Below, piece after piece: positions 5,717 to 18,367 of a stretch of 23,953 bases of DNA. The position numbers and the translations under genes are program-made. Below the pieces are notes generated by a model, which was not told the DNA's origin, did no database searches, and saw nothing but the letters and a program-made list of their open reading frames with translations. Origin of the DNA: a virus; IMG/VR virus record IMGVR_UViG_3300025769_000837, positions 1-23,953 of that record; one strand, written 5' to 3'. How positions within the stretch are numbered: position 1 is the stretch's first letter; the number at the start of each line of letters is the position of its first letter.

Positions 5717-8134
5717 ATGCCGCTAACCAAACTCCAGTTCCGCCCAGGAATTAACAGAGAAACCACGTCCTATTCTAATGAGGGCGGTTGGTTTGATATG
5801 GACAAGGTTAGATTTCGGTTTGGCTTTCCAGAAAAAATAGGTGGGTGGGAGAAAACTTCTTCCACCTACTTTCTAGGTACATGCCGTGCATTGCATCCAT
5901 GGGTTGCTTTGAACGGTGAACGCTACCTTGGTGTAGGCACACACCTCAAGTATTATATTAACGAGGGTGGTGGGTATAACGACATTACACCCATTCGTGC
6001 AACGACGGCTGCGGGGGATGTAACTTTTCAAACGTATAAAGCGTTGATGCTTAACCTATCTGGTTCGCTAGACATCAGCATAGATCAAACTGAAATTGGA
6101 CCGTTGTTGTATTTTGGAGGAGGCTCTCTTCCAGAAACAGGGTTTGTAAAAATAGACGACGAAATAATTTCATATGCTGCAATTTCAGGAACAACACTTC
6201 AGGGTTGTTTGCGAGGACAAAAAGGAACAGATGCTGCAACACACACTGGACTTGTTATAGAGGTTAGTTTTTCTACAATTGTTGTTACAGACACTAACCA
6301 TGGTGCTCTTGCAAATGATTTTGTTACTTTTTCTGGTGCAGCGTCAATTAATGCATCCGGAAATGTTGGTTCTGTTGCAGTCACTAGCGGTCTTTCCACG
6401 GGAAGTTCTACGTTTAATGACGTAGGACAAACGTCTACAAGTGGTTCTGGAACAGGTGCAAAATTTAATATCACGGCAAATAGCTCTAATAACACTTACA
6501 CAGTTAACTATGTGGAAAAAGGTGGTTCTGGTTACGCTGACAATGACACAATCACCATCGCGGGAACAAGTTTAGGTGGGGCTACTCCAACAAATGATTT
6601 AGTCCTAACAGTAACTACGCTTGCTGGAACCATAACAAGCACGATTTTAAATCAAGAATATGAAATTTCATATGTGCCCAATGACAATTCGTATTACATA
6701 AATGCTCGAACCGAAGAGGCTTTAGCTTCTATTACTACAACGGATGGGATTAACGACACTCTTGTTTTTGCTAATATTTCAAGTGGTTCCGGCGCAGGAG
6801 GAGCATCTACCGTTGGAACATATCAAATCAACACGGGTCTAGATACCACAATTACTGGTACAGGTTGGGGCGCAGGCACATGGAGCCGTGGAACGTGGGG
6901 CAGCGCAGCATCACTGATTGCCTCTGGTCAGACGCTTCGTATTTGGTCGCACGACAACTTTGGTGAGGATCTTTTAATCAACGTGCGTGATGCGGGTATA
7001 TATTACTGGGATAAAACCAACGGCACATCTACTCGGGCTGTAGCAATTAGTGATCTAGCAGGGGCGAATACCGCACCAACCATTGCTAAGAAAGTGCTTG
7101 TTTCTGATAGAGACAGGCACGTTATAGCTTTTGGTTGTGATTCACAACTCGACATTGGTACGCAGGATCCGTTGCTTATACGGTTCTCGGACCAAGGCTC
7201 AATAACCGATTGGGCTGCTACGGCGACTAATACTGCTGGGGACTTGCGCCTCGGTTCTGGGTCCGAGATTGTTACGGCTATTGAGACGCGGCAACAGGTT
7301 CTGGTGTTTACCGACGTATCGCTTCACGCAATGCAGTTTCTTGGGCCACCGTTTACCTTTGGCATAAACACGGTGTCGGAAAACATCACGATTGCTGGTC
7401 CGTTAGCAGCTATTGCAATCGAGGATCAGGTGTACTGGATGGGTGCAGAAGAGTTCTATGTGTATGGCGGTGCAGTGCAGCGTTTACCATGTACGGTGCG
7501 GGACTTTGTATTTAGCGACATCAACACTGACCAGCTTGAGAAAGTAACGGCGTCCACCAATACGGCTTTTTCTGAAATCTGGTGGTTCTATCCTTCAGCT
7601 TCGAGCACAGAGTGCAACAAGTACGTTGTGTACAACTACCAACAACAAATTTGGTACTACGGATCTCTAAATCGCACAGTTTGGCTGGACCGTGGTGTTG
7701 AGAGCTTTCCGATTGCGGCAAGCACCGACCATGCGCTGTATTATCATGAGCGTGGGTTTGATGACGGGTCGACTGCTCCTGCCACGGCGATTACGTCGTT
7801 CATCGAGAGTAGCCAGATGTCGCTTGGCGAAGGGGACAACTTTGTGTTCTTACGCAGGTTGATACCAGACTTGACGTTCCGTGATAGTACAGCGGTAACA
7901 CCTTCGGCTACGATGACGCTTGAGGCGCGAAATTATCCAGGCGGTGCGTATTTACAAACCAACAGCAAGACTGTGACCAAGACCGCGTCGGTTCCTGTGG
8001 AGCAATGGACTAATCAGGTTAACGTTCGACTGCGTGGTCGCTCGTTTGCGTTTAAAATAGAAACAACGGAGACAGGTGTAGGATGGAGACTGGGCTCTCC
8101 AAGAGTAGACGTGCAGCCTGACGGGATGCGGTAA
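5717..8134 (+). CDS. Head-tail junction / tail nozzle-type virion protein (P22 gp10-like)
   Basis: An 805-residue structural protein beginning MPLTKLQFRPGINRETT, a start I recognise from many marine podovirus virion proteins. The N-terminal 90 residues and the C-terminal half (residues about 380-700, including DQGSITDWAAT, AMQFLGPPFTFG, YWMGAEEFYVYGG and WYYGSLNRTVWLDRG) read as repeated beta blades, as in the beta-propeller plug and nozzle proteins of short-tailed phages such as P22 gp10. Residues about 105-185 and 212-305 are different in style, richer in Ser, Thr, Gly and Asn, and look like inserted modules. The role would be closing the portal or tail channel and keeping packaged DNA in place. 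The family assignment rests on general pattern and neighbourhood. The stop TAA overlaps the next ATG by one base. Confidence 0.7.
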   Translation: MPLTKLQFRPGINRETTSYSNEGGWFDMDKVRFRFGFPEKIGGWEKTSSTYFLGTCRALHPWVALNGERYLGVGTHLKYYINEGGGYNDITPIRATTAAGDVTFQTYKALMLNLSGSLDISIDQTEIGPLLYFGGGSLPETGFVKIDDEIISYAAISGTTLQGCLRGQKGTDAATHTGLVIEVSFSTIVVTDTNHGALANDFVTFSGAASINASGNVGSVAVTSGLSTGSSTFNDVGQTSTSGSGTGAKFNITANSSNNTYTVNYVEKGGSGYADNDTITIAGTSLGGATPTNDLVLTVTTLAGTITSTILNQEYEISYVPNDNSYYINARTEEALASITTTDGINDTLVFANISSGSGAGGASTVGTYQINTGLDTTITGTGWGAGTWSRGTWGSAASLIASGQTLRIWSHDNFGEDLLINVRDAGIYYWDKTNGTSTRAVAISDLAGANTAPTIAKKVLVSDRDRHVIAFGCDSQLDIGTQDPLLIRFSDQGSITDWAATATNTAGDLRLGSGSEIVTAIETRQQVLVFTDVSLHAMQFLGPPFTFGINTVSENITIAGPLAAIAIEDQVYWMGAEEFYVYGGAVQRLPCTVRDFVFSDINTDQLEKVTASTNTAFSEIWWFYPSASSTECNKYVVYNYQQQIWYYGSLNRTVWLDRGVESFPIAASTDHALYYHERGFDDGSTAPATAITSFIESSQMSLGEGDNFVFLRRLIPDLTFRDSTAVTPSATMTLEARNYPGGAYLQTNSKTVTKTASVPVEQWTNQVNVRLRGRSFAFKIETTETGVGWRLGSPRVDVQPDGMR

Positions 8135-8430
8135 TGTCTCGAAACTTAAACCTTCCGTTCTTTCCAATTGCGCCTCCAAGTTACGACCAGCAATACATTG
8201 CGGAGGTTGTTCGGGCTTTTTCTGTTTATCTAGAGCAGATGCAAAACCCAGGTGAAGGGCGAAACACCTTTGCCGTATTTACCAATTTACAAACCGACGA
8301 CAGCGGTCTAGAGCCAGGGGCTATCTTTAACCATGATGGATATGTTAGAGTGCCGTTAGCGCATTCTCCATACGTTCGTGGATCTCAGGCTACGGGCGCT
8401 GTTGGATCAGTAACAGTGAGTACACCATGA
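8134..8430 (+). CDS. Small virion-cluster protein ending in a fibre-type repeat (98 aa)
   Basis: A 98-residue protein starting MSRNLNLPFFPIAPPSYDQQ. Residues 16-40 (YDQQYIAEVVRAFSVYLEQM) look helical and resemble short conserved proteins found after the nozzle gene in marine phages. Residues 75-98 contain YVRGSQATGAVGSVTV, a single copy of the same repeat that builds the fibre protein at the left edge of the window. The start codon shares a base with the previous stop (TAATG) and the stop overlaps the next gene as ATGA, so it is translationally coupled on both sides. The function is unknown. A connecting or fibre-docking part is a guess based on the shared repeat. Confidence 0.7.
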   Translation: MSRNLNLPFFPIAPPSYDQQYIAEVVRAFSVYLEQMQNPGEGRNTFAVFTNLQTDDSGLEPGAIFNHDGYVRVPLAHSPYVRGSQATGAVGSVTVSTP

Positions 8431-8654
8431 CCGATACAATTATAACTATGCCCGACGGGTCACGCTGGAAACCTTCGTCAAGTTCTGATACAGTGCATTG
8501 TGTAAACTGTGATAATGCGGTTGACACGCCAGAAGAAGTCGCAAGCTACCCCGATGGGAACTGTCCAGATTGCGGACAGTCTTGGACAGGCGCAGAAAAA
8601 CGTAGCACCAGAATTACTGTGACTGCGCCTGAAGCTATTAGAGGGGAAGCCTGA
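8427..8654 (+). CDS. Small zinc-ribbon protein (75 aa)
   Basis: A 75-residue protein with two CxxC pairs: C25-V-N-C28 and C46-P-D-C49, followed by GQSW. This is a typical rubredoxin- or zinc-ribbon-like metal site with a 17-residue spacer. The N-terminal part (MTDTIITMPDGSRW) and the C-terminal part (STRITVTAPEAI) are short beta strands. The start overlaps the preceding stop as ATGA, and its own stop overlaps the next start as TGATG, so it is part of a tightly coupled cluster of virion genes. It may be a structural adapter or bind a nucleic acid or protein. The role is not evident; the zinc site is what the sequence shows. Confidence 0.75.
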   Translation: MTDTIITMPDGSRWKPSSSSDTVHCVNCDNAVDTPEEVASYPDGNCPDCGQSWTGAEKRSTRITVTAPEAIRGEA

Positions 8655-9457
8655 TGAGCCTTGGTTCTATACTTGGTGGTTTAGCTGGATTACTTATTCC
8701 AGGTGGTGGAGCTATTGCCGCTGCGATTGGCTCTGGTTTGGGCGGCTTAATTATTGACAAAAAGAAACCAAAGGACGCAATCAAAGACGCGTTGATTGCT
8801 GGGGTAGGAGCCAAGTTCTTTGGTCCAGCCATTCAAAACTCTGGCTTTGGTTCAGGCATTACATCGCTGCTGGGGTCCGCAGGCATTAACCCACTCGGCG
8901 CATCTGTTAGTGCTGCTGCTCCTATGCAGCAAGCTGTTGGTGGTGCGTTGACGAAAGAAGTCGCAACCAACCTTGCAACACAGGGTGCGCAAAACGCTGC
9001 TGGAAAAGGAATTGTAAGTCAGGTTCTTGGTGGCAACCCCTTGATGCTATACGGGGGGCTCACGGCCCTTGGTGCAGTAGAAGAGTTAACCAAACCAAAA
9101 GGCAACTTCAAAGAATTGTATGTAGATCGGTACACGGGCCGTAGGTTTAGCTCACCAGAAGCACGAGACGAATACGAAGAAATGTATAGGCAGAAACACG
9201 GGTTTGAATATCCAGAAGGTCTTCCTCCTCGGTCCACTGGGTATGCTATGGGTGGCTATATTGAAGGGCCAGGAACAGGGCGAAGCGACTCTATACCTGC
9301 GCAGATTTATCAAAACGGACAACCTGTACAAGAGGCAGCATTATCTGATGGCGAGTTCGTTATGACTGAACGCGCTGTAAAAGGGGCGGGTAACGGAGAT
9401 AGAGAAAAGGGCGCAGCTAAAATGTACGCGATGATGCGCGAGTTTGAGAGGGCATAA
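8654..9457 (+). CDS. Glycine-rich virion protein with glycine-zipper N-terminus
   Basis: A 267-residue protein. Residues 4-33 (ILGGLAGLLIPGGGAIAAAI and onward) are hydrophobic with Gly every 3-4 residues, a glycine zipper that could pack helices or enter a membrane. A short Lys-rich stretch (KKKPKDAIK) follows. Residues about 145-185 are polar and helical (YVDRYTGRRFSSPEARDEYEEMY). Residues 197-267 carry a motif widespread in marine phage virion proteins: MGGYIEGPGTGRSDSIPA, then ALSDGEFVMTERAVKGAGNG, then AAKMYAMMREFE. Between SDSIPA and ALSDGEFV there are 13 extra residues compared with the compact form I remember. It precedes the three large internal-protein candidates and overlaps both neighbours. 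It is probably a minor virion or ejection protein, but this is inference. Confidence 0.65.
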   Translation: MSLGSILGGLAGLLIPGGGAIAAAIGSGLGGLIIDKKKPKDAIKDALIAGVGAKFFGPAIQNSGFGSGITSLLGSAGINPLGASVSAAAPMQQAVGGALTKEVATNLATQGAQNAAGKGIVSQVLGGNPLMLYGGLTALGAVEELTKPKGNFKELYVDRYTGRRFSSPEARDEYEEMYRQKHGFEYPEGLPPRSTGYAMGGYIEGPGTGRSDSIPAQIYQNGQPVQEAALSDGEFVMTERAVKGAGNGDREKGAAKMYAMMREFERA

Positions 9458-11646
9458 TGACAGAAACAAACACACAAATCGCCGTACAAGATATCCCAGA
9501 GTGGATGAAAAATTACATGGCTACGGCGGATCCCAACTATACAGGGATTCTCGACGAGGCTATGCGTCAATACACGGCGCGTTCTGGGCAACTGACTGAC
9601 GCTCAACTTGCCGCTCTTACACCTGCCCAACTACAAGTTGCTGGACGTACCCCACTGCAAACGCAGGCGGGGCAACTCGCTGCTGCTGGCGTTGGTTCAT
9701 ATATGCCTATGCTGCAAGCGGGTGCCGGAACCGTTGGTGCGGGGGTCACGGGCCTTGGTACTGCGCTACAGACTATGCAGCAAGGGTATAACCCATTGGC
9801 GGCGGCACAAACTATGGTTACGGATGCCTATCAGGGTGCGGTGCCATATCGTGATTTTGCAGTGGGTCAATTGCAAGCAGCAATTCCCGAGGTGCAAGCA
9901 GCGGCTCAAGCTGGTGTAGGCGCGGCGGCGGCAGGTCGGCAAGGCGTACTAGAAGCGGGGCAGCGTGGAGAAGCGGCGTTAACGGGAGCCGCACGGCGCG
10001 GGGAACTAGCAGCGGCTGGCGGGGTTCGTGGTATAACGGATGCGGCTACGGCTGGAGCTCGTGCCGGAGAGCAAACAGCGGCGAATATCTTAGGGCAAGT
10101 GGGCGCGGGTCAGCAAGCTCTGACGGGGTCGGCCTCTGACATACAGGATATTGGTGCATTAGCACAACGCGCAGGCTTGGGTGCAGGGGCAGACGTGATG
10201 AACTTGGGTCGCAAGGCTGAGAGCGTTGGACTTGGTGCATTGCAAACACTGCCGGAATACGGAGCCCGTATGGAGCAGCAGGGGCAAACCACTGCTGGGA
10301 ACATATTACGGGCTGGTAGTGCGGCGGATGAGCTTGGTCAGTATGGCTTGACTGCGGCACAGGCTGGTATTGCAGGGTTGCAGGGTTCAGCGGCGGAGTT
10401 TGATCCGTCTTCGATACAGAACTACATGAACCCGTATGAGCAGTCTGTTATTGATGCTGCTATGCAGGACGTAGCACGGGCTGGTGCGATACAAAGAAAT
10501 CAGATGGATGCAACTGCGGTGGGTGCGGGTGCATTTGGAGGATCTCGTCAGGGTATAGAAGCAGCCGAGATTGGGCGCAACGTTATAGAGCAGCAGGCTA
10601 AGACAGCGGCGGGGCTAAGACAGGCTGGGTACGAAAGCGCATCGCAACGAGCGCAGGCCGCATACGAATCAGCAAAGGGTCGGCAGCAACAGGCCGCAGG
10701 ACTTACTGGTCAACTTGGACAGGCGGGTGCAGCCACGGGATTACAGGCAACACAAACTGGAATGCAGGCAGCGCAGGCCGCAGGGCAGGCAGCGCAGCAA
10801 GGTACGCAGGCTGGAGCCAACATTGCAACACAGGCTACGCAACTTGGACTGGCGGGTCTTGGACAGGCGGCAGCGAACAGAGCCACAAGTGGTCAGCTTA
10901 ATTTAGCTGGCACAGGGCAGGGTATGCAGGCAGCGCAGCAAGCTGGAGCCATGGGCGCGCAAGCCGCGCAAATGGGTATGGGCGCGGCACAGCAAGCGGG
11001 TCAAGCTCAAATGCAGGGCGCACAAATGGGTATGCAAGGAGCGCAAGCAGCAGGCCAGATGGGACTGGCTGGGGCGCAGGCAGCAGGCCAGATGGGCGCA
11101 CAAGGAGCGCAAATGGGCGCACAAACCGCAGCGCAAGGCGCAGGTCTTGGTATGCAAGGAGCGCAAATGGGTATGCAGGGCGCAGGTCAGGCAGCGGGTC
11201 TTGGTGCGCAAGTCGGTCAGATAGGGCAACAGTTTGGTCAGATGGGACTGGCTGGTGCAGGTCAGATGGGCGCGATTGCAGGTCAGTACGGACAGTTGGG
11301 CCAAGGTATTGCAGGCGTGGGTCAGGGACTGGGGTCCTTGGGCATGCAGCAAGCGCAGCTTGGAGAGGCGCAACAGGGCCTCAACCTCAACGACGTCAAC
11401 ACACTTCTGTCCGTCGGCGCACAAGAGCAGCAGCAACGTCAGGCAGAACTGGATGCAGCATACGCAAACCAGATGGCTCAGTACCAACGTCCGATGCAGG
11501 AGTTGGGTTTTTACTCAGATATCTTCCAAGGTATGCCTATTGGTCAGTCAACGTACTCGCAAACCACTACTCCGGCTCCAAGCACTATTTCTCAACTTGG
11601 CGGTCTGGCTGGCGGCTTGTATGGAATGTACCGCGCAACACGGTAA
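9457..11646 (+). CDS. Ala/Gly/Gln-rich internal virion protein candidate (729 aa)
   Basis: A 729-residue protein starting MTETNTQIAVQDIPEWMKNY. The first 320 residues are Ala- and Gln-rich helix. Residues 322-395 hold a conserved block: YMNPYEQSVIDAAMQDVARA, then AVGAGAFGGSRQGIEAAEIG and the helix QRAQAAYESAKGRQQQ. Related blocks occur in many marine phage proteins annotated as internal virion or DNA-ejection proteins. Residues about 413-640 are a low-complexity tract of A, G, Q and M. The C-terminus (ELGFYSDIFQGMPIGQST) returns to normal composition. It starts by overlapping the previous stop (TAATG). The position before two large proteins fits the set of three ejection proteins of podoviruses. 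No enzyme motif is visible. The ejection role is inferred. Confidence 0.65.
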   Translation: MTETNTQIAVQDIPEWMKNYMATADPNYTGILDEAMRQYTARSGQLTDAQLAALTPAQLQVAGRTPLQTQAGQLAAAGVGSYMPMLQAGAGTVGAGVTGLGTALQTMQQGYNPLAAAQTMVTDAYQGAVPYRDFAVGQLQAAIPEVQAAAQAGVGAAAAGRQGVLEAGQRGEAALTGAARRGELAAAGGVRGITDAATAGARAGEQTAANILGQVGAGQQALTGSASDIQDIGALAQRAGLGAGADVMNLGRKAESVGLGALQTLPEYGARMEQQGQTTAGNILRAGSAADELGQYGLTAAQAGIAGLQGSAAEFDPSSIQNYMNPYEQSVIDAAMQDVARAGAIQRNQMDATAVGAGAFGGSRQGIEAAEIGRNVIEQQAKTAAGLRQAGYESASQRAQAAYESAKGRQQQAAGLTGQLGQAGAATGLQATQTGMQAAQAAGQAAQQGTQAGANIATQATQLGLAGLGQAAANRATSGQLNLAGTGQGMQAAQQAGAMGAQAAQMGMGAAQQAGQAQMQGAQMGMQGAQAAGQMGLAGAQAAGQMGAQGAQMGAQTAAQGAGLGMQGAQMGMQGAGQAAGLGAQVGQIGQQFGQMGLAGAGQMGAIAGQYGQLGQGIAGVGQGLGSLGMQQAQLGEAQQGLNLNDVNTLLSVGAQEQQQRQAELDAAYANQMAQYQRPMQELGFYSDIFQGMPIGQSTYSQTTTPAPSTISQLGGLAGGLYGMYRATR
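10697..11390 (+). repeat. Low-complexity Ala-Gly-Gln-Met helical repeat tract
   Basis: This in-frame tract encodes units such as GAQAAGQMGLA, GAQAAGQMGAQ, GAQMGMQ and GAGLGMQ, that is, units of 11 and 7 residues. Exact or near-exact DNA repeats are present: gcgca(a/g)gcagcaggcca is repeated at 11041 and 11074 (33-bp spacing), and ggtatgcaaggagcgcaa occurs at 11029 and 11149 (120-bp spacing). The bias also leaves unrelated reading frames open on both strands across the tract; these are not genes. Confidence 0.8.
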
Positions 11647-11655
11647 GGAGTTATT

Positions 11656-14172
11656 ATGAACGTCGAAAACAGAAAGCTCTTTGTAAATCGGGACGCACGG
11701 AAACGTTTAAGCGAAATGGGTGGCATCATGGCTTCCTCGGGGGAGCTTATGAACGAGGTGCAGAAGTTTGCACCTGGCGGAGAAGTTGTTGTTGAACAGT
11801 ATGTTGCGGTTATACCTGGAATAAACGGGGGTCGTCCTGTTCGATTACGCGGTGACACGCTTGCAAGACTACAGGATCTCGCACCTGAGATCATGCAACA
11901 GGCGTTTGTTATGGACGCTGCTACTGCGGCTGAACGTGGTGTGGATGTAAACAGACTTCGTCCAGGTGATGCGTTTGTTGAGCGTCAGTTATCTTCTCCT
12001 ACACCTAGTCCTGTAGTTCAGGATTCTGTGGAGGACAAAAACTTTGGACAAAGGGTCGGGGACACACTACGAAGTGCGCTGCAACCTATTGGTGAGACTT
12101 TAAGAAATGTGGGCCAGCCTATTGGTGAAGAGATTCGGGCTGGATTGGAATCGTCATATAGCTACAATCCGTTGAGTGGAAACTTTACTGCACCGGATAT
12201 TCCATTTCGATCTCTTGAGGACCCCACCAACCCTATGGTTAGTTTAATTGAGTCAGGATTAAAATCCGCAGGCGTCGAGGATCCAAACGCAGCGTTAATT
12301 GGGCAAGTTGATCCTAGTCTCGTAGCTCAACTTTCGGCTCCTCCCATGTATGACATGACAAAGTTTAACAGACCTACGAGTGCGACAGAACCTGACATGA
12401 CCGCGTTGGAGGCTCTGGAATTACAACGGGCCTCGGATCCGCGTTCAGATGAGGGTATCCGAGCGCGTGTTGCTGAAAGTGCGCAGCGCGGCATGAGAGC
12501 GGGTGAGATTGCCAACATGCTTGGTCGTCCACTTTTAGAGATTTTAGATATTGGTGCAGGTTTAGCAAGTGCAGGTCTGTTAGAGGGTACGGCGTTTGCT
12601 TCAGATGTCATGTCTGCATTCCAGTCTGGTGTAATGGGGAATACGCAAGCTGGCGAGTTTTATGCGGGATTAGCAACAGACATTAAAGATTTGTCCGACG
12701 AGATGTACTACAACGAGGGGGAGGTGCTGCCTCGTTTAACCGCAGGTTTGGACAAAGGTTCGACGGAAGCTGAACTACTTGAGCAGAGTCGTAAGGACAT
12801 TGAATCTCAATCTTTGCGGAATATGTCGGATGCTATGTTGGCGAACGATCCATCGTTGTTTGCTGAAGGATCTGTGTCAGAGCGGTTACCAGACATCCCA
12901 GAGTCAGTTATCCAAGCGCGGAAGGGGACAGGTCCTGAAGTTTCCTTCATGGGTCTTGCTGAAGAACCTGGTGGTGCACCACTTGGGCGTGGTAGTTCGG
13001 AAACAATTAACTTTACCGCATTGCCTGAAGAAGATGTTCTCCGTAGTAATCCATCAAATTTACCTTATCTTGACACAAGCACGGGTGTGCCTTTGACTGT
13101 GGACGAAATTGCGGAACGACAGTTAACTGAACGAATCGAGGCAGCAGATGCTGGCTTAACAAATATTCAAGAGCAACCTGATCGTTTCCCAGCAGAAGAT
13201 GCGTATCAAGAGGCGCAGCAAGCCGAAATTAATCGCATATTATATCCAGAACGAGCACGAAAGTTTCGTGCAGAAGAGGAGCGCCTTGCGGGAAGAACAG
13301 AAGGTATGACTGATGCCGAAGCAAAAGCCTTTAATGAAAAGGTTCGTGCAGAATTAGAGTCTGAAAAGGCAGAGGACGGGGCACAAGAACAAGTAGCTAC
13401 AACAAAGGACGGCAATGGTCTTGACGAATCTCTTCGTCCAAGAGCTCGACCAGATTTACCATCCATTGAAAAGATAGCAAAAGACCCAAAGTTATCGCCT
13501 GAACAAAAAGCCAGCGCAGCATCTGATCAATTGTTTTCTGATATAACAGGGCAAAAAATAAGTATGTCCGCCAAAGACTCTGTCAAAGCGTATGAAAAAA
13601 TGTTTAGCGAAATGCTAGGCATGGACGATAAAGACGCCGAAAAAGAAATGTGGCACAACATGGCAATGATTGGGTTTGCCATCGCCGCAGGAGAAAGTCC
13701 TAGCGCATTACAGAACATCGCCAACGGTATGCTGGCTGGTACGAAGATGATGAAAGAAGATCGTGCCACTAAACAGAAACGCGAAGACGCCGTCAAAACA
13801 ATGGCGATTGAACGGGCATTTAAGTTGGAAGATGACGCTGCCAAGTTTCAAAGGGATCTTGCTCTTGCAAGGGTGCGCGGCTCTGGCACAGATAAATACA
13901 CAACGGAGCGAGAAAGAAGTCGTCTTAAAGAAGTTATTCTTCGAGATCCCTACGCTTATCCAGGTCTTTTAGGCGACGACGGTCAAATCGATCCGAATAG
14001 ACTAAACACATATCTTGATAGCGTTGTCACAGGAGACATTCCCGAGAAACCTAAACTTAGTCAAGAAGAAGCTATAGCTCAATACAACAGTATTCTTGCC
14101 ACCAGACCAGAGCTAAAAAGCGTTATGCTAACACGACTTAGAAATGAAGGTTACGACACAAAAGGGTTATAG
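11656..14172 (+). CDS. Internal virion protein candidate (838 aa)
   Basis: An 838-residue protein starting MNVENRKLFVNRDARKRLSE, followed by GGIMASSGELMNEVQKFAPGG, a beginning I recall from marine phage internal proteins. Residues about 85-110 include MDAATAAERGVDVNRLRPGD. The middle (residues 110-500) is Pro-, Ser- and acid-rich and probably flexible. The last 250 residues are helical (AYEKMFSEMLGMDDKDAEKE, then IGFAIAAGESPSALQNIANG). The C-terminal segment contains KLSQEEAIAQYNSIL. A clear AAGGAG site lies 7 bases before the ATG and the gap to the previous gene is 9 bases. It sits between the Ala/Gly/Gln-rich protein and the very large protein, which fits a three-protein ejection set, though no motif proves it. 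No transglycosylase or protease catalytic motif is visible. Confidence 0.65.
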   Translation: MNVENRKLFVNRDARKRLSEMGGIMASSGELMNEVQKFAPGGEVVVEQYVAVIPGINGGRPVRLRGDTLARLQDLAPEIMQQAFVMDAATAAERGVDVNRLRPGDAFVERQLSSPTPSPVVQDSVEDKNFGQRVGDTLRSALQPIGETLRNVGQPIGEEIRAGLESSYSYNPLSGNFTAPDIPFRSLEDPTNPMVSLIESGLKSAGVEDPNAALIGQVDPSLVAQLSAPPMYDMTKFNRPTSATEPDMTALEALELQRASDPRSDEGIRARVAESAQRGMRAGEIANMLGRPLLEILDIGAGLASAGLLEGTAFASDVMSAFQSGVMGNTQAGEFYAGLATDIKDLSDEMYYNEGEVLPRLTAGLDKGSTEAELLEQSRKDIESQSLRNMSDAMLANDPSLFAEGSVSERLPDIPESVIQARKGTGPEVSFMGLAEEPGGAPLGRGSSETINFTALPEEDVLRSNPSNLPYLDTSTGVPLTVDEIAERQLTERIEAADAGLTNIQEQPDRFPAEDAYQEAQQAEINRILYPERARKFRAEEERLAGRTEGMTDAEAKAFNEKVRAELESEKAEDGAQEQVATTKDGNGLDESLRPRARPDLPSIEKIAKDPKLSPEQKASAASDQLFSDITGQKISMSAKDSVKAYEKMFSEMLGMDDKDAEKEMWHNMAMIGFAIAAGESPSALQNIANGMLAGTKMMKEDRATKQKREDAVKTMAIERAFKLEDDAAKFQRDLALARVRGSGTDKYTTERERSRLKEVILRDPYAYPGLLGDDGQIDPNRLNTYLDSVVTGDIPEKPKLSQEEAIAQYNSILATRPELKSVMLTRLRNEGYDTKGL
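14161..14166 (+). promoter_or_regulatory. Ribosome binding site deciding the start of the largest virion gene
   Basis: aaaggg lies 10 bases upstream of the ATG at 14177. The alternative ATG at 14144 lies within the preceding gene and has only weak purines upstream. Together with the short distance from the stop at 14170-14172, this favours 14177. Confidence 0.5.
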
Positions 14173-14176
14173 TAGT

Positions 14177-17100
14177 ATGGCAGGGTTGTTCGACGACTTA
14201 TTGCAAGAAAACAATGCTCCACCGCCCTCCGCCCCCAGTGGTGGGTTGTTCGATGATCTTTTAGTGGAAGAAGCTGAAGAAGAATCAGATCAAACGGTCG
14301 TTGGTTCTATCGGTCGAGGTGTACCCGCTGGTTTAGTTAACATCGCACAGGGGATCTCGGAACTTGGTGCGGCTGGGTTAGAAGCTGCGAACATCGTAGA
14401 CGAGGGCAGTCAAGAAGCAGTCACACAAGCCTTTGAAAACTTCAAGGATGCGACAGGGTTACGACCAGAGCGCACTGCGGGTAAAGTCGCAGAGGTTATA
14501 ACAAACTATGCTACACCTGGCCTTGGCGTATTTAGCTGGGTATCTAAAGCAGACAAAGCACGGAAAGCTATACAGGCTGGAGCCCCGCTACCCAAAGCAA
14601 AGACTTGGTTTGGTAAGTCCGCTGTTAAGTTTGGGGAGAAAGCACCCAAAGCATTGACGGGCACACGCGTAGGTCGCGCTGCCTTGACCACGGTAGGCAC
14701 TGGAGTTGCCGACGTATTGGTGTCGCCTAGCTCAATGACCACGCTTGCGGACAGTTGGGATGCAATGCCCGAGTTTATGCGGACAGAAGACGAAAAAGGA
14801 CTGACAGGCAAAGAGCTCACAGGTGTCCGTCTGCGCAACAAGCTGCGTCTTGGTCTTGAGGGCGCAGGGTTTAACCTTGGTGCAGAGGTTGCACTTCCAG
14901 TGGTAGGTGCGACTATCAAAGGTATTGGTCAGGTTCCAGGTGTGCCAGCTATGGCTCGGGGGCTGTCTAATGCGTTTGACTACATGGGCAACAAGATCCT
15001 TGAAGCTCCTGTCATTGGACGTGTTACTAAAAAATATCTAACACCGAATGGCCTTGCAAACAGCGAAGTCATGACTGCGTTGCGGACAGCGGAGGGCATG
15101 ACCGAGGGTCAGGAAAAAATTGCCAGTGATATTGTACGAGACTATGACAAGGCTGTTCGAGACTTAATTAAGTTTCAGGGCGTCAGAGGTTTGTTTCGTT
15201 CGGGTCGAGAACGAATACAGCGCACATACAACGACACATTTGATTACCTAACAGGAGAAATGGCTCCTGCGGATTTCCGTTCAGCGTATGGTTCTAAAGT
15301 TACCAATGCTGCGGATAGAATGCGGGATCAAATTACAAATTTGAGCAACACCTTCCGGCAATCTGTTGAAGAATCTAACCTGCCAAGAGAAGAGATTGAT
15401 CGAATTGTAGGACTGTTTGATCAGAACCAAGCAACATATCTACGTCGGGTGTATGAGATTCAACTAAACCCTGACAAGTTTAAAGGCGTGGTTGTTAGAG
15501 ACTTACCTCAGTACAATGCTGCGCTGGCGCAAACCGAACAGGCAATGCGCAACAGAAACATGCGGATCCAGAACGGCATTAATAACGGCACCATCCGTCC
15601 TGACGATCCACAGGTAGAGCTTCTTGTAGACGACCCTAGAGCCGCAGCCGAATTGTTTATAGATCAACAGTTTGAAAATGCTGGCGTTACGTTAGGACAG
15701 TTTTCTTCAGATGCGCCAAGAGCTTTGCGAGAAGAATACGCAAGAGGCAAGAAGGCCGTGGAAAATGCCACGCGTGGCAACCTATTTAACCTGTCTAGTG
15801 GAATGCTGAAGGACAGGTCCTCGATCCTTGATGAGGCCCCTCTCTTGCAAGAGATGATGGGCGTCGTTGACAACCCCAAGGACGCATATCTTTACACAAT
15901 CAATAACTTATCAAACACTCTTGCTGCTCAGAAACTATACTCTGAGGTACAAAGAAGTTTAGGTAAAGTAGACTATCAAGCGGCGGCTCCAAGGCTGGCC
16001 TCTGGGACATACCGTCCCACCATCGATGGTAGCACTGTGCCTGATGACGCAGTGGCAAGCCTCACAGGGTTGGGTTATGTCAAAGCGGGGGATGCTGTAA
16101 GAGCTCAAGACAATGCTTTTGGCGGATCCTTTGGTGCTTTGAGTGGGGACTATGTTCCTGCTGAAGTATACAACGCTTTAACAACGCCTCTGCGCTCAAG
16201 CTCCTCGGTCCAAGAAGCTCTTGCTGTATCCTTGCAACTCAAGGGCTTGTCGCAGATGTCGAAGACGGTGCTCAATCCACTGTCACAAGTTCGAAACTTT
16301 TTGTCCAACACATTTGTTGTGGGGGCCAACGGTTTGCTTGGCAGAAACATGGGCATATTTGAAAGTGCAGACGTGCTCTTGGCAAATGCTGTCGATAGTC
16401 CCGAACAGTTCAAGTTACTTCGAGCCATGGCAAACGAGGGTGCGATTGGTCAGAACATTCAGATCAACGAGATGCGTAGACTTCTGCAAGAGCAAACAGA
16501 GCTTGGTGTTTCTTCTAGATTAAACAAGCTCGGCAACTTTGTTGTTGAGTCAAAAGCTGGTGCGCCAGTTCGCTTCATGCAGAAAACCTACCAGCTTGGC
16601 GATGACTACTGGAAGGTCGTGGGCGCGTTGGGGGAGAAAGCTCGATACGGCGCGGCTCTTCGTAAAGCTGGTGTTGATATCGACAACGTGTCACCACAGG
16701 TGCAGCAAGCTCTGATGGACGCGGGTCTTGTGCAGAGAACACGTTCGATTGCTGACACTGATTTCGGTGACATGCTTGCCATTGATCTTGTAAAGCAAAC
16801 CATGCCTACATACTCCATGGTTCCCGAAGCTATCAAAGCTATTCGTCGGGTCCCTGTCGTTGGTAATTTTATGGCGTTTCCTGCGGAGATTATTCGTACT
16901 TCTGGCAACATCGTAAACCGCGCTGTCAAAGAGATGGGGTTCAAGGCTACTCCAGAACTGATCCAAGCTCTTGGTGAGCAGCAGGCTCGTGCTCTTGCGC
17001 GTCAGATCCGTGGGATCGGGGCGCAGCGTTTGACAGGCTACATCTCTATGGCTGGTGTAGCGCCGATTGCAATGCGTGACGCTGCCCATAGCGTTCTTGA

Positions 17101-18367
17101 AGTAACACCAGAAGAAGAGCAGTTGCTGGCAGAGAACAGTCCGTACTGGACCAAAGGCAACACGCTTATGTTTTTAAGCAAGCTCAAGGACGGCGAGGCC
17201 GAATACGCTGACCTGTCCTACATGTTGCCCTATGAGTTTATGCTGGCCCCCGCCCGTGCGGCACTACAAGTGTATGGAGAGAAAGGCGAGGTTGGAGCCA
17301 ACGAAGCAGAACAGATCTTTGCTGCATCTTGGGAAGGGTTTAAGAAGTTTGCCGAACCGTTTGCGTCAGAAGCATTGGCAGCGGAGCGTGTGTTTGACGT
17401 CACTATGCGGGATGGTAAAACCCAGACTGGCGCAGAGATCTATGAGCCAGGTGAAATGTGGGGGGACAAACTTTCGAAGTCCTTGGTCCATGTAGCTGGC
17501 GCATTTATGCCAGGTATTATAGACCAGTTTACCACAGTCAAAGGCGGACAGTTTGTTCCTGGTCGTGCCACACGCGCAGTCACAGACATGCCGTCCAGAG
17601 AAGGCGACCCCTACACAGTAGCCGAAGAAGCAGGGACCATGATGATTGGTGTGCGTCCCATGAAGCTCAAGGTGGATCGGAGCCTTAGTTATGCTGGTGG
17701 AGAGTATTCTGCCAACCGCTCAAGTGCAGTGCAGATCTTTACAAAAGTTGCTGATGACAATGACGCGACAGAAGAAGACATCGTCAACGCGTATGTAAAA
17801 GCAAACGAAGCACGTCGTCGTCACCAAGCGGAACTACGGGACAAGATTGAAAAAGCCAAAGCCGCAGGAATGACCATTGGTCAAATCTATCAAGCATTTA
17901 AAAATACTGGCGTGTCGCAAAAAGAACTAACGCAGATTATGAACAACCGATACTCTCCAATTGAGGTCAGTCGAAGTTTAATTAGGGAAGTTAGCAACGA
18001 AGTTAACGTTAAACGTGAGAGCCGAATCTTAAAGAAACTACCTCGCACTGAAATACTTGAGGCAGCGAAAGCATTTAGAAACGCTCCAATTGTAGGGGAG
18101 CAGCAACCTGTTCCTACTGCACCTGCTTCTGGTGGGCTTTTCGATGATCTATTGCAAATGCCTTCACAACCACAGCCCACGGTCCCCGAACCACAGCCCA
18201 GCGAAACCTTTATCGGTCGTGCAGCAGGCTCGGTGATGGATACAGGGCGGGGGATCACACAAGGGTTGGTTGACCGTGCTCGTACCATAGCCCCAAGTTT
18301 GTTGGGCAGCGACCCAGTATCTCAGGCTGCTAACCAAGAGATCCTAAACCGCCGCGCAAATCAGTAG
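14177..18367 (+). CDS. Very large internal virion protein candidate (about 1396 aa)
   Basis: I place the start at the ATG at 14177. It follows the previous gene's stop by four bases, has aaaggg 10 bases upstream, and begins MAGLFDDLL. An in-frame ATG at 14144 would add 11 residues inside the previous gene and has a weaker upstream site. The motif GLFDDLL occurs at residues 3-9, 23-29 and 1320-1326, each beside Pro/Ser-rich linkers. The centre is mostly helical, with segments such as TVLNPLSQVRNFLSNTF (about residue 700) and RVPVVGNFMAFPAEIIRTSG (about residue 890). Size, position last in the structural cluster and helix-rich content resemble the largest ejected protein of T7-like phages (gp16), but the sequence has no recognisable transglycosylase motif at the N-terminus. 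Assignment is by context. Its last 7 bases overlap the convergent minus-strand gene. Confidence 0.65.
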   Translation: MAGLFDDLLQENNAPPPSAPSGGLFDDLLVEEAEEESDQTVVGSIGRGVPAGLVNIAQGISELGAAGLEAANIVDEGSQEAVTQAFENFKDATGLRPERTAGKVAEVITNYATPGLGVFSWVSKADKARKAIQAGAPLPKAKTWFGKSAVKFGEKAPKALTGTRVGRAALTTVGTGVADVLVSPSSMTTLADSWDAMPEFMRTEDEKGLTGKELTGVRLRNKLRLGLEGAGFNLGAEVALPVVGATIKGIGQVPGVPAMARGLSNAFDYMGNKILEAPVIGRVTKKYLTPNGLANSEVMTALRTAEGMTEGQEKIASDIVRDYDKAVRDLIKFQGVRGLFRSGRERIQRTYNDTFDYLTGEMAPADFRSAYGSKVTNAADRMRDQITNLSNTFRQSVEESNLPREEIDRIVGLFDQNQATYLRRVYEIQLNPDKFKGVVVRDLPQYNAALAQTEQAMRNRNMRIQNGINNGTIRPDDPQVELLVDDPRAAAELFIDQQFENAGVTLGQFSSDAPRALREEYARGKKAVENATRGNLFNLSSGMLKDRSSILDEAPLLQEMMGVVDNPKDAYLYTINNLSNTLAAQKLYSEVQRSLGKVDYQAAAPRLASGTYRPTIDGSTVPDDAVASLTGLGYVKAGDAVRAQDNAFGGSFGALSGDYVPAEVYNALTTPLRSSSSVQEALAVSLQLKGLSQMSKTVLNPLSQVRNFLSNTFVVGANGLLGRNMGIFESADVLLANAVDSPEQFKLLRAMANEGAIGQNIQINEMRRLLQEQTELGVSSRLNKLGNFVVESKAGAPVRFMQKTYQLGDDYWKVVGALGEKARYGAALRKAGVDIDNVSPQVQQALMDAGLVQRTRSIADTDFGDMLAIDLVKQTMPTYSMVPEAIKAIRRVPVVGNFMAFPAEIIRTSGNIVNRAVKEMGFKATPELIQALGEQQARALARQIRGIGAQRLTGYISMAGVAPIAMRDAAHSVLEVTPEEEQLLAENSPYWTKGNTLMFLSKLKDGEAEYADLSYMLPYEFMLAPARAALQVYGEKGEVGANEAEQIFAASWEGFKKFAEPFASEALAAERVFDVTMRDGKTQTGAEIYEPGEMWGDKLSKSLVHVAGAFMPGIIDQFTTVKGGQFVPGRATRAVTDMPSREGDPYTVAEEAGTMMIGVRPMKLKVDRSLSYAGGEYSANRSSAVQIFTKVADDNDATEEDIVNAYVKANEARRRHQAELRDKIEKAKAAGMTIGQIYQAFKNTGVSQKELTQIMNNRYSPIEVSRSLIREVSNEVNVKRESRILKKLPRTEILEAAKAFRNAPIVGEQQPVPTAPASGGLFDDLLQMPSQPQPTVPEPQPSETFIGRAAGSVMDTGRGITQGLVDRARTIAPSLLGSDPVSQAANQEILNRRANQ

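Follow-up and report, generated by a model that had tools for sequence, protein, structure and literature searches.

The window analysed here, namely the whole stretch of 23,953 nucleotides of the IMG/VR virus record IMGVR_UViG_3300025769_000837, comes from a marine phage and encodes a 1396-aa virion protein that carries the peptide GLFDDLL three times, close to both of its ends. Comparative analysis makes it quite probable that these peptides, hereafter called tags, serve as docking peptides in tandem, that their cognate mini-domain (the receptor) forms the C-terminus of the ejection-type protein encoded directly upstream, and that binding between tag and receptor couples the two proteins. 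The observations behind this reading are the repetition of the tags, the agreement of the copies within one protein, the switching of the upstream C-terminus, alone among the segments tested, together with the tags, the change of tag class on near-identical backbones, and a comparable matching in P22-like phages. As far as sequence comparison can tell, the pattern suggests a lock-and-key of interchangeable parts between two proteins with a probable role in DNA delivery.

The first-pass annotation of the window had reported the three copies, and their positions were exact to the base (Table 1). It had also described codon differences between the copies and an SGG directly ahead of the last two, and both observations were borne out: copy 1 reads ggg ttg ttc gac gac tta ttg, copy 2 ggg ttg ttc gat gat ctt tta, and copy 3 ggg ctt ttc gat gat cta ttg. 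None of 2000 residue shuffles of the 1396-aa protein gave any 7-mer three times, and only 9 gave any 7-mer twice. Two tags are located at the N-terminus and one approximately 70 residues before the C-terminus, on Pro/Ser/Glu-rich linkers. Traits of docking peptides of the short linear motif (SLiM) type are present: a short conserved peptide is repeated in a disordered linker, and the linkers are variable. No other protein of the same genomes carried the tag in at least two copies. The 1396-aa protein matched PHROG 22602, "virion structural protein" (E = 3.9e-19), and for a distant homologue in Cellulophaga phage phi18:3, annotation as a structural protein is based on tandem mass spectrometry (MS/MS) proteomics; a profile search of the PDB revealed no relatives. 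Adjoining the tagged-protein homologue of phi18:3, a 104-aa protein (gp122; locus L076, 5658-5969) consists of tandem repeats of ~28 aa (LYDAVSKDYDLGTYEEFETKLQDPSKRK..), and this longer repeat may have a similar role.

Table 1. Positions of the tagged protein, its proposed docking tags and the upstream genes in the window
Feature	Position	Strand	Basis and remarks
729-aa Gln/Ala-rich internal protein, possible gp7 position	9457..11646	+	ORF; no co-variation with tag
838-aa protein, gp20 position, gene directly upstream of the tagged protein, carrier of the proposed receptor	11656..14172	+	Directly upstream in every locus covering that stretch
Two-helix mini-domain ..QEEAIAQYNSILATRPELKSVMLTRLRNEGYDTKGL at the C-terminus of the 838-aa protein, proposed cognate receptor	14062..14169	+	Co-variation; AlphaFold2
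1396-aa tagged virion protein, gp16 position of the ejection-protein operon	14177..18367	+	ORF (ATG 14177-14179, last codon 18362-18364, stop 18365-18367); PHROG 22602 match; phi18:3 homologue
Proposed docking tag copy 1, GLFDDLL, residues 3-9	14183..14203	+	Other peptide class there in homologues
Proposed docking tag copy 2, GLFDDLL, residues 23-29, SGG before	14243..14263	+	Other peptide class there in homologues
Proposed docking tag copy 3, GLFDDLL, residues 1320-1326, SGG before	18134..18154	+	Class agrees with N-terminal copies

A scan of IMG/VR provided 72 related loci (numbered with the prefix L) at 49-100% identity. All homologues with an intact N-terminus carried two to three copies of a short peptide within approximately 40 residues of the start. 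Where the C-terminus was available, most homologues also carried one to two copies ~70 residues before the C-terminal end. The peptides, assigned to classes by eye ahead of testing, fell into the classes GLFDDL, FDPTKPF(TIV), FVPI, (Y)IPPEPLGP, NPFLAL, APWE, LFG[AV][PA], SEIDKLFTMEALTG, RDDLFL, and NPFAR. Copies within one protein agreed: in 34 of 34 distinct proteins, the N-terminal region was best matched by a C-terminal region of the same class, with a mean score of 50 for a protein's own pair and 22 for different classes; L052 is open at its 3' end. The conservation of the motif in homologues had two sides. The arrangement and the agreement between copies were conserved, while the peptide itself was often another one; taking an unconserved motif as a refutation, as the first-pass annotation proposed, would misfire because homologues hold other peptides at the same places. 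In bacterial genomes, only two distant loci turned up, both in Thiothrix metagenome-assembled genomes. INPHARED searches with the GLFDD receptor, the NPFLAL receptor, the GLFDD tag region, and the FDPT tags yielded chance-level matches only; among them, a match to an N4-like metalloprotease (E = 0.02) was judged coincidental.

The classes did not track the backbone. A maximum-likelihood tree of 40 backbones, from which the first 80 and the last 150 residues had been removed, required 21 class changes, the minimum possible being 9. Different classes were found on backbones of 95-99% identity in the pairs window/L003, L014/L016, L016/L020, L041/L053, and L008/L038. Loci L041 and L053 were 96-98% identical over positions 3140-23733 of L041 with three exceptions only: 9589-10006, which covers the upstream C-terminus and the N-terminal tags; 13785-13865, which covers the C-terminal tag; and one 0.5-kb insertion. 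The receptor end and the N-terminal tags lie within ~250 bp and were swapped as one block in L041/L053 and L015/L022. This proximity would suit an explanation by linkage only, in which a single DNA cassette, spanning the 3' end of the upstream gene and the adjacent 5' end of the tagged one, is replaced and the tag and the upstream tail make no contact. However, the C-terminal tag still follows the class at a distance of ~4 kb from the receptor, and the ~1200 residues between them are unexchanged and near-identical, so simple linkage does not explain the agreement. In addition, the cassette boundary coincides with the mini-domain and does not fall at random points, and mismatched whole genes are dead in P22 (PMC10883804). 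We regard mere linkage as very improbable. It is above all the concerted switching of the C-terminal tag from 4 kb away that speaks for a functional match.

The upstream protein displayed the corresponding changes at its C-terminus. Its tail ended in ..PELKSVMLTRLRNEGYDTKGL in the GLFDD class, ..EMVEVIQNGKKIKVKKSQLK in FDPT, ..AAGQTQYVGPDGNNYKVQ in FVPI, ..AAGKSEFVFGGQRYPVR in PPEPLGP, and ..GVSDEKIKSQLIEAGHDPKTYGLI in NPFLAL, and contained ..VSTQADFDALKTGTVFLQKN.. in LFG according to the alignment. In a nearest-neighbour test on 20 dereplicated loci, with 17 cases scored, the nearest neighbour by the last 45 aa of the upstream protein shared its tag class in 16 of 17 cases, and none of 20,000 label shuffles was as good; by backbone, the class was the same in 2 of 17. 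The area under the curve (AUC) was 0.97 for these 45 aa, 0.67-0.69 for other segments of the upstream protein, and 0.62 for the backbone. A scan of ten protein families of the neighbourhood gave AUC values of 0.40-0.72 everywhere except in the last bin of the upstream protein (0.94) and the tagged protein's first bin (0.95). Two loci found afterwards, L088 (FVPI) and L097 (FDPT), both had the expected receptor tail. The first-pass annotation had suggested a repeated docking peptide for another ejection protein and had named the 729- and 838-residue proteins as partners to be tested. The results fit the former suggestion: one of the two named partners, the 838-aa protein, changes class over its last ~45 residues together with the tags; the 729-aa protein showed no co-variation with tag class (AUC 0.46-0.58). 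Outside its tail, the upstream protein varied unevenly: its N-terminus (window 11656-11760; N.NRK[LM]F.NR.AR..L..MGGI..S) is strongly conserved in homologues, and its middle part varies extremely in both length and sequence, the whole protein measuring 566-913 aa.

The same annotation had offered packing of the protein in the head as another role. In such a case, binding of the tags to scaffold, portal or coat would recruit the large protein to the procapsid, with the upstream tail as a second ligand of the same site. This is compatible with the presence of the repeated peptide near either end of a protein in need of packing in the head, and most loci, like the co-variation scan, do not extend to the capsid, portal, and scaffold genes. 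However, the upstream C-terminus alone co-varied among the genes scanned, the gp20 of P22 is packaged via its N-terminal 314 residues (PMC8402733), and head packing is less likely because a foreign, mismatched gp16 is still packaged in P22 without a matching gp20 (PMC10883804). A packaging signal is, in our view, distinctly unlikely.

Structure prediction supported a folded receptor. For the last 60 aa of the window's 838-aa protein, AlphaFold2 placed helices at residues 25-38 and 40-53, with a predicted local distance difference test score (pLDDT) of 87-93 over the last 40; the receptor of the window is therefore confidently predicted as a two-helix mini-domain. When the FDPT-class tail was modelled with its tags in an artificial chain that reads through the stop, the tail formed a beta-hairpin (residues 31-44, pLDDT 72-80). 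Two helices in GLFDD versus a hairpin in FDPT suggest that different peptide classes would have different reader folds.

An analogous pair was found in P22-like phages, starting from a search with the peptide NPFDQFD. In Shewanella phage ZP9, recovered by this search, the protein at the gp16 position starts with MANPFDQFDAQQENPFDQFD, and the preceding gene ends in ..AIDYLMQNPQFKEQFRAKYGYLPEGV. DNA-transfer proteins of P22-like phages share this tail; in six further isolates, the protein that follows begins with MAN[PVIF]FDQFD. The gp20 tail of P22 is ..SYTSKSGIKFTVE, and that of Sf6 and HK620 is ..FSSLWGD, together with the gp16 head MAKAWKDV.ASPQYQAL..; P22 and Sf6 thus belong to different tail/head classes. 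After the addition of 80 IMG/VR loci, the gp20-tail and gp16-head classes agreed in 86 of 86 distinct P22-like pairs, and the bodies were common across classes. For instance, the bodies in loci L145 and L152 show 99% identity, over 395 aa in gp20 and 540 aa in gp16, but the tail and head differ. In phages Sf101 and Dewey (L135 and L136), the gp20 tail (..SIDYLKQHPELSIDFINRYGYLPSLGQ) is divergent, and the gp16 behind it begins with MANYRDLLEQAG directly at its transglycosylase-like part, without FDQFD; this is possibly a further class or a degenerate tag. The GLFDD receptor was also compared with the NxFDQFD-class receptor; a relationship was suggestive in shuffles (z 5.3) and not significant with a hidden Markov model (HMM; best E 0.49), so homology between the two is not claimed.

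Published exchange experiments with P22 and Sf6 bear on this matching. P22 carrying only gene 16 or only gene 20 of Sf6 formed no plaques, and phages with both genes exchanged were functional; Sf6 gp16 was present in the dead P22 particles, the removal of the last 33 residues destroyed gp20 function, and the authors inferred that gp16 and gp20 must interact (PMC10883804). In the excerpts of that paper, the interaction is inferred and not located to these ends. The pair of the window resembles P22/Sf6 in two respects: a gp20-like gene is followed by an adjacent gp16-like gene in a virion-protein operon, and the C-terminus of the first protein and the N-terminus of the second form matched classes on near-identical bodies. 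The arrangements also differ. In P22-like gp16, there is one head module (with two NPFDQFD copies in ZP9), and no C-terminal copy was seen. In Sf6 and HK620, the polarity looks reversed, with the short ..FSSLWGD peptide on gp20 and a ~40-aa helical-looking head on gp16. Given the gene order, the match to a virion-protein family, and the P22 analogy, the 838-aa and 1396-aa proteins probably serve DNA delivery.

The exchange of many classes on near-identical backbones also resembles diversifying or frequency-dependent selection, as might be imposed by a host or prophage inhibitor (for example, a superinfection-exclusion protein) or a satellite that targets the peptides; the match of the tail would then be a by-product of exchange. 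The superinfection-exclusion protein SieA of P22 indeed works through gp16 and gp20, but the mutations that escape it lie in the bodies (gp16 532 and 546; gp20 338-350) and not at the docking ends (PMC10883804). Moreover, such recognition alone leaves the class-specific receptor unexplained. We consider it unlikely, although less so than the two alternatives above, and it may be the reason for the diversity of the tags rather than their function.

Several points weigh against docking between tag and receptor. Apart from the assignment of the classes by eye, the N-terminal tags (LFGVA) and receptor of L039 are of the LFG class, and its C-terminal copy is GLFSKI; this indicates that a match of the C-terminal copy may not be strictly required. 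In L045, the receptor is closer to the PPEPLGP than to the FVPI class. The tags in the artificial FDPT chain reached a pLDDT of ~71-74, with a predicted template modelling score (pTM) of 0.22, values that give no firm indication about docking either way. No repeated tags were detected in the distant relatives L123-127 and pelagiphage HTVC027P (L074), at ~24% identity. Furthermore, Pfam and PHROG revealed no homology of the 838-aa and 1396-aa proteins to P22 gp20 and gp16, so that the functional parallel rests on gene order and behaviour. With regard to L039, its GLFSKI, the sole off-class C-terminal copy observed, resembles the C-terminal tags of L058 and L066 (VGLFSGI), and the locus is perhaps a recent recombinant. 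In L123, L124, L125, and L127, the upstream protein ends in another conserved tail, ..ALGDFAQI.TQ.DVD.FN.KYQV.LVLPQEA, which possibly represents another docking class.

Under the docking reading, the 1396-aa protein would present GLFDDLL three times on its flexible Pro/Ser/Glu-rich linkers, and each copy would be bound by the C-terminal two-helix domain of one 838-aa subunit. The tag and the receptor would form a matched class, a module that recombination can swap with both protein bodies left unchanged. To judge by position and by the analogy with P22 gp20/gp16, the contact would couple the likely builder of a trans-periplasmic conduit, the 838-aa protein, to the large protein that follows it, which would be held on a ring or tube of the upstream protein; this could take place in the head or during conduit building, the stage that the P22 data suggest. 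With several tags, each large protein could engage two to four conduit subunits, in keeping with unequal copy numbers.

Small terminal modules of matched classes that set the choice of partner between conserved proteins are also known from the docking domains of modular polyketide synthases and from cohesin-dockerin pairs. These belong to assembly lines or cellulosomes and not to virion proteins, and no relation is implied. Among phages, the C-terminus of the N4 and DEV tunnel proteins (gp51/gp72) has been proposed to bind the N-terminal domain of the virion RNA polymerase (vRNAP; gp50/gp71) (PMC12633501; PMC10925440), with three large proteins per nonameric tunnel in N4 (PMC12633501). A repeated peptide or class switching is, however, not described there.

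Additional observations concern other parts of the window. The protein that enters from its left end (3-839) is an array of ~22-aa units like VTGLEATGAVGTVTV, and a 98-aa protein (8134-8430) ends in one such unit (..GSQATGAVGSVTVSTP); the repeat unit is thus common to two proteins. The C-terminal stretch (..GRSDSIPAQIYQNGQPVQEAALSDGEFVMTERAVKGAG..) of a 267-aa protein (8654-9457) matches several tape-measure and endolysin PHROGs at their ends.

The requirement for matching gp16 and gp20 is already known for P22/Sf6, and its determinants are not named in the accessible literature. No account of terminal peptide/mini-domain classes or of concertedly switching tandem tags was found in the open-access literature. 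A literature search returned no papers on the motifs by sequence, and no such motif was found in the paper on polyvalent proteins. There is a fair chance that the tags represent a general and undescribed specificity code. In two unrelated phage groups, co-variation would place the contact between the last ~45 residues of one protein and the short peptide or head at the N-terminus of the next, and the class code predicts which gene combinations should and should not work. The natural near-isogenic pairs L145/L152 and L041/L053 differ almost only in the cassette. Tandem tags also offer a testable idea of how unequal copy numbers are bridged, as in the P22 particle with roughly 12 gp16 and 30 gp20 (PMC8402733), and the modules could be used as small orthogonal peptide/receptor pairs. 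For short-tailed phages in general, we hold it to be an evenly balanced proposition that a modular peptide/mini-domain code operates at the ejection-protein junction, with helical and hairpin classes, reversible polarity, tunable valency, and exchange by cassette, and that this code keeps the ejection machines of co-infecting relatives unmixed.

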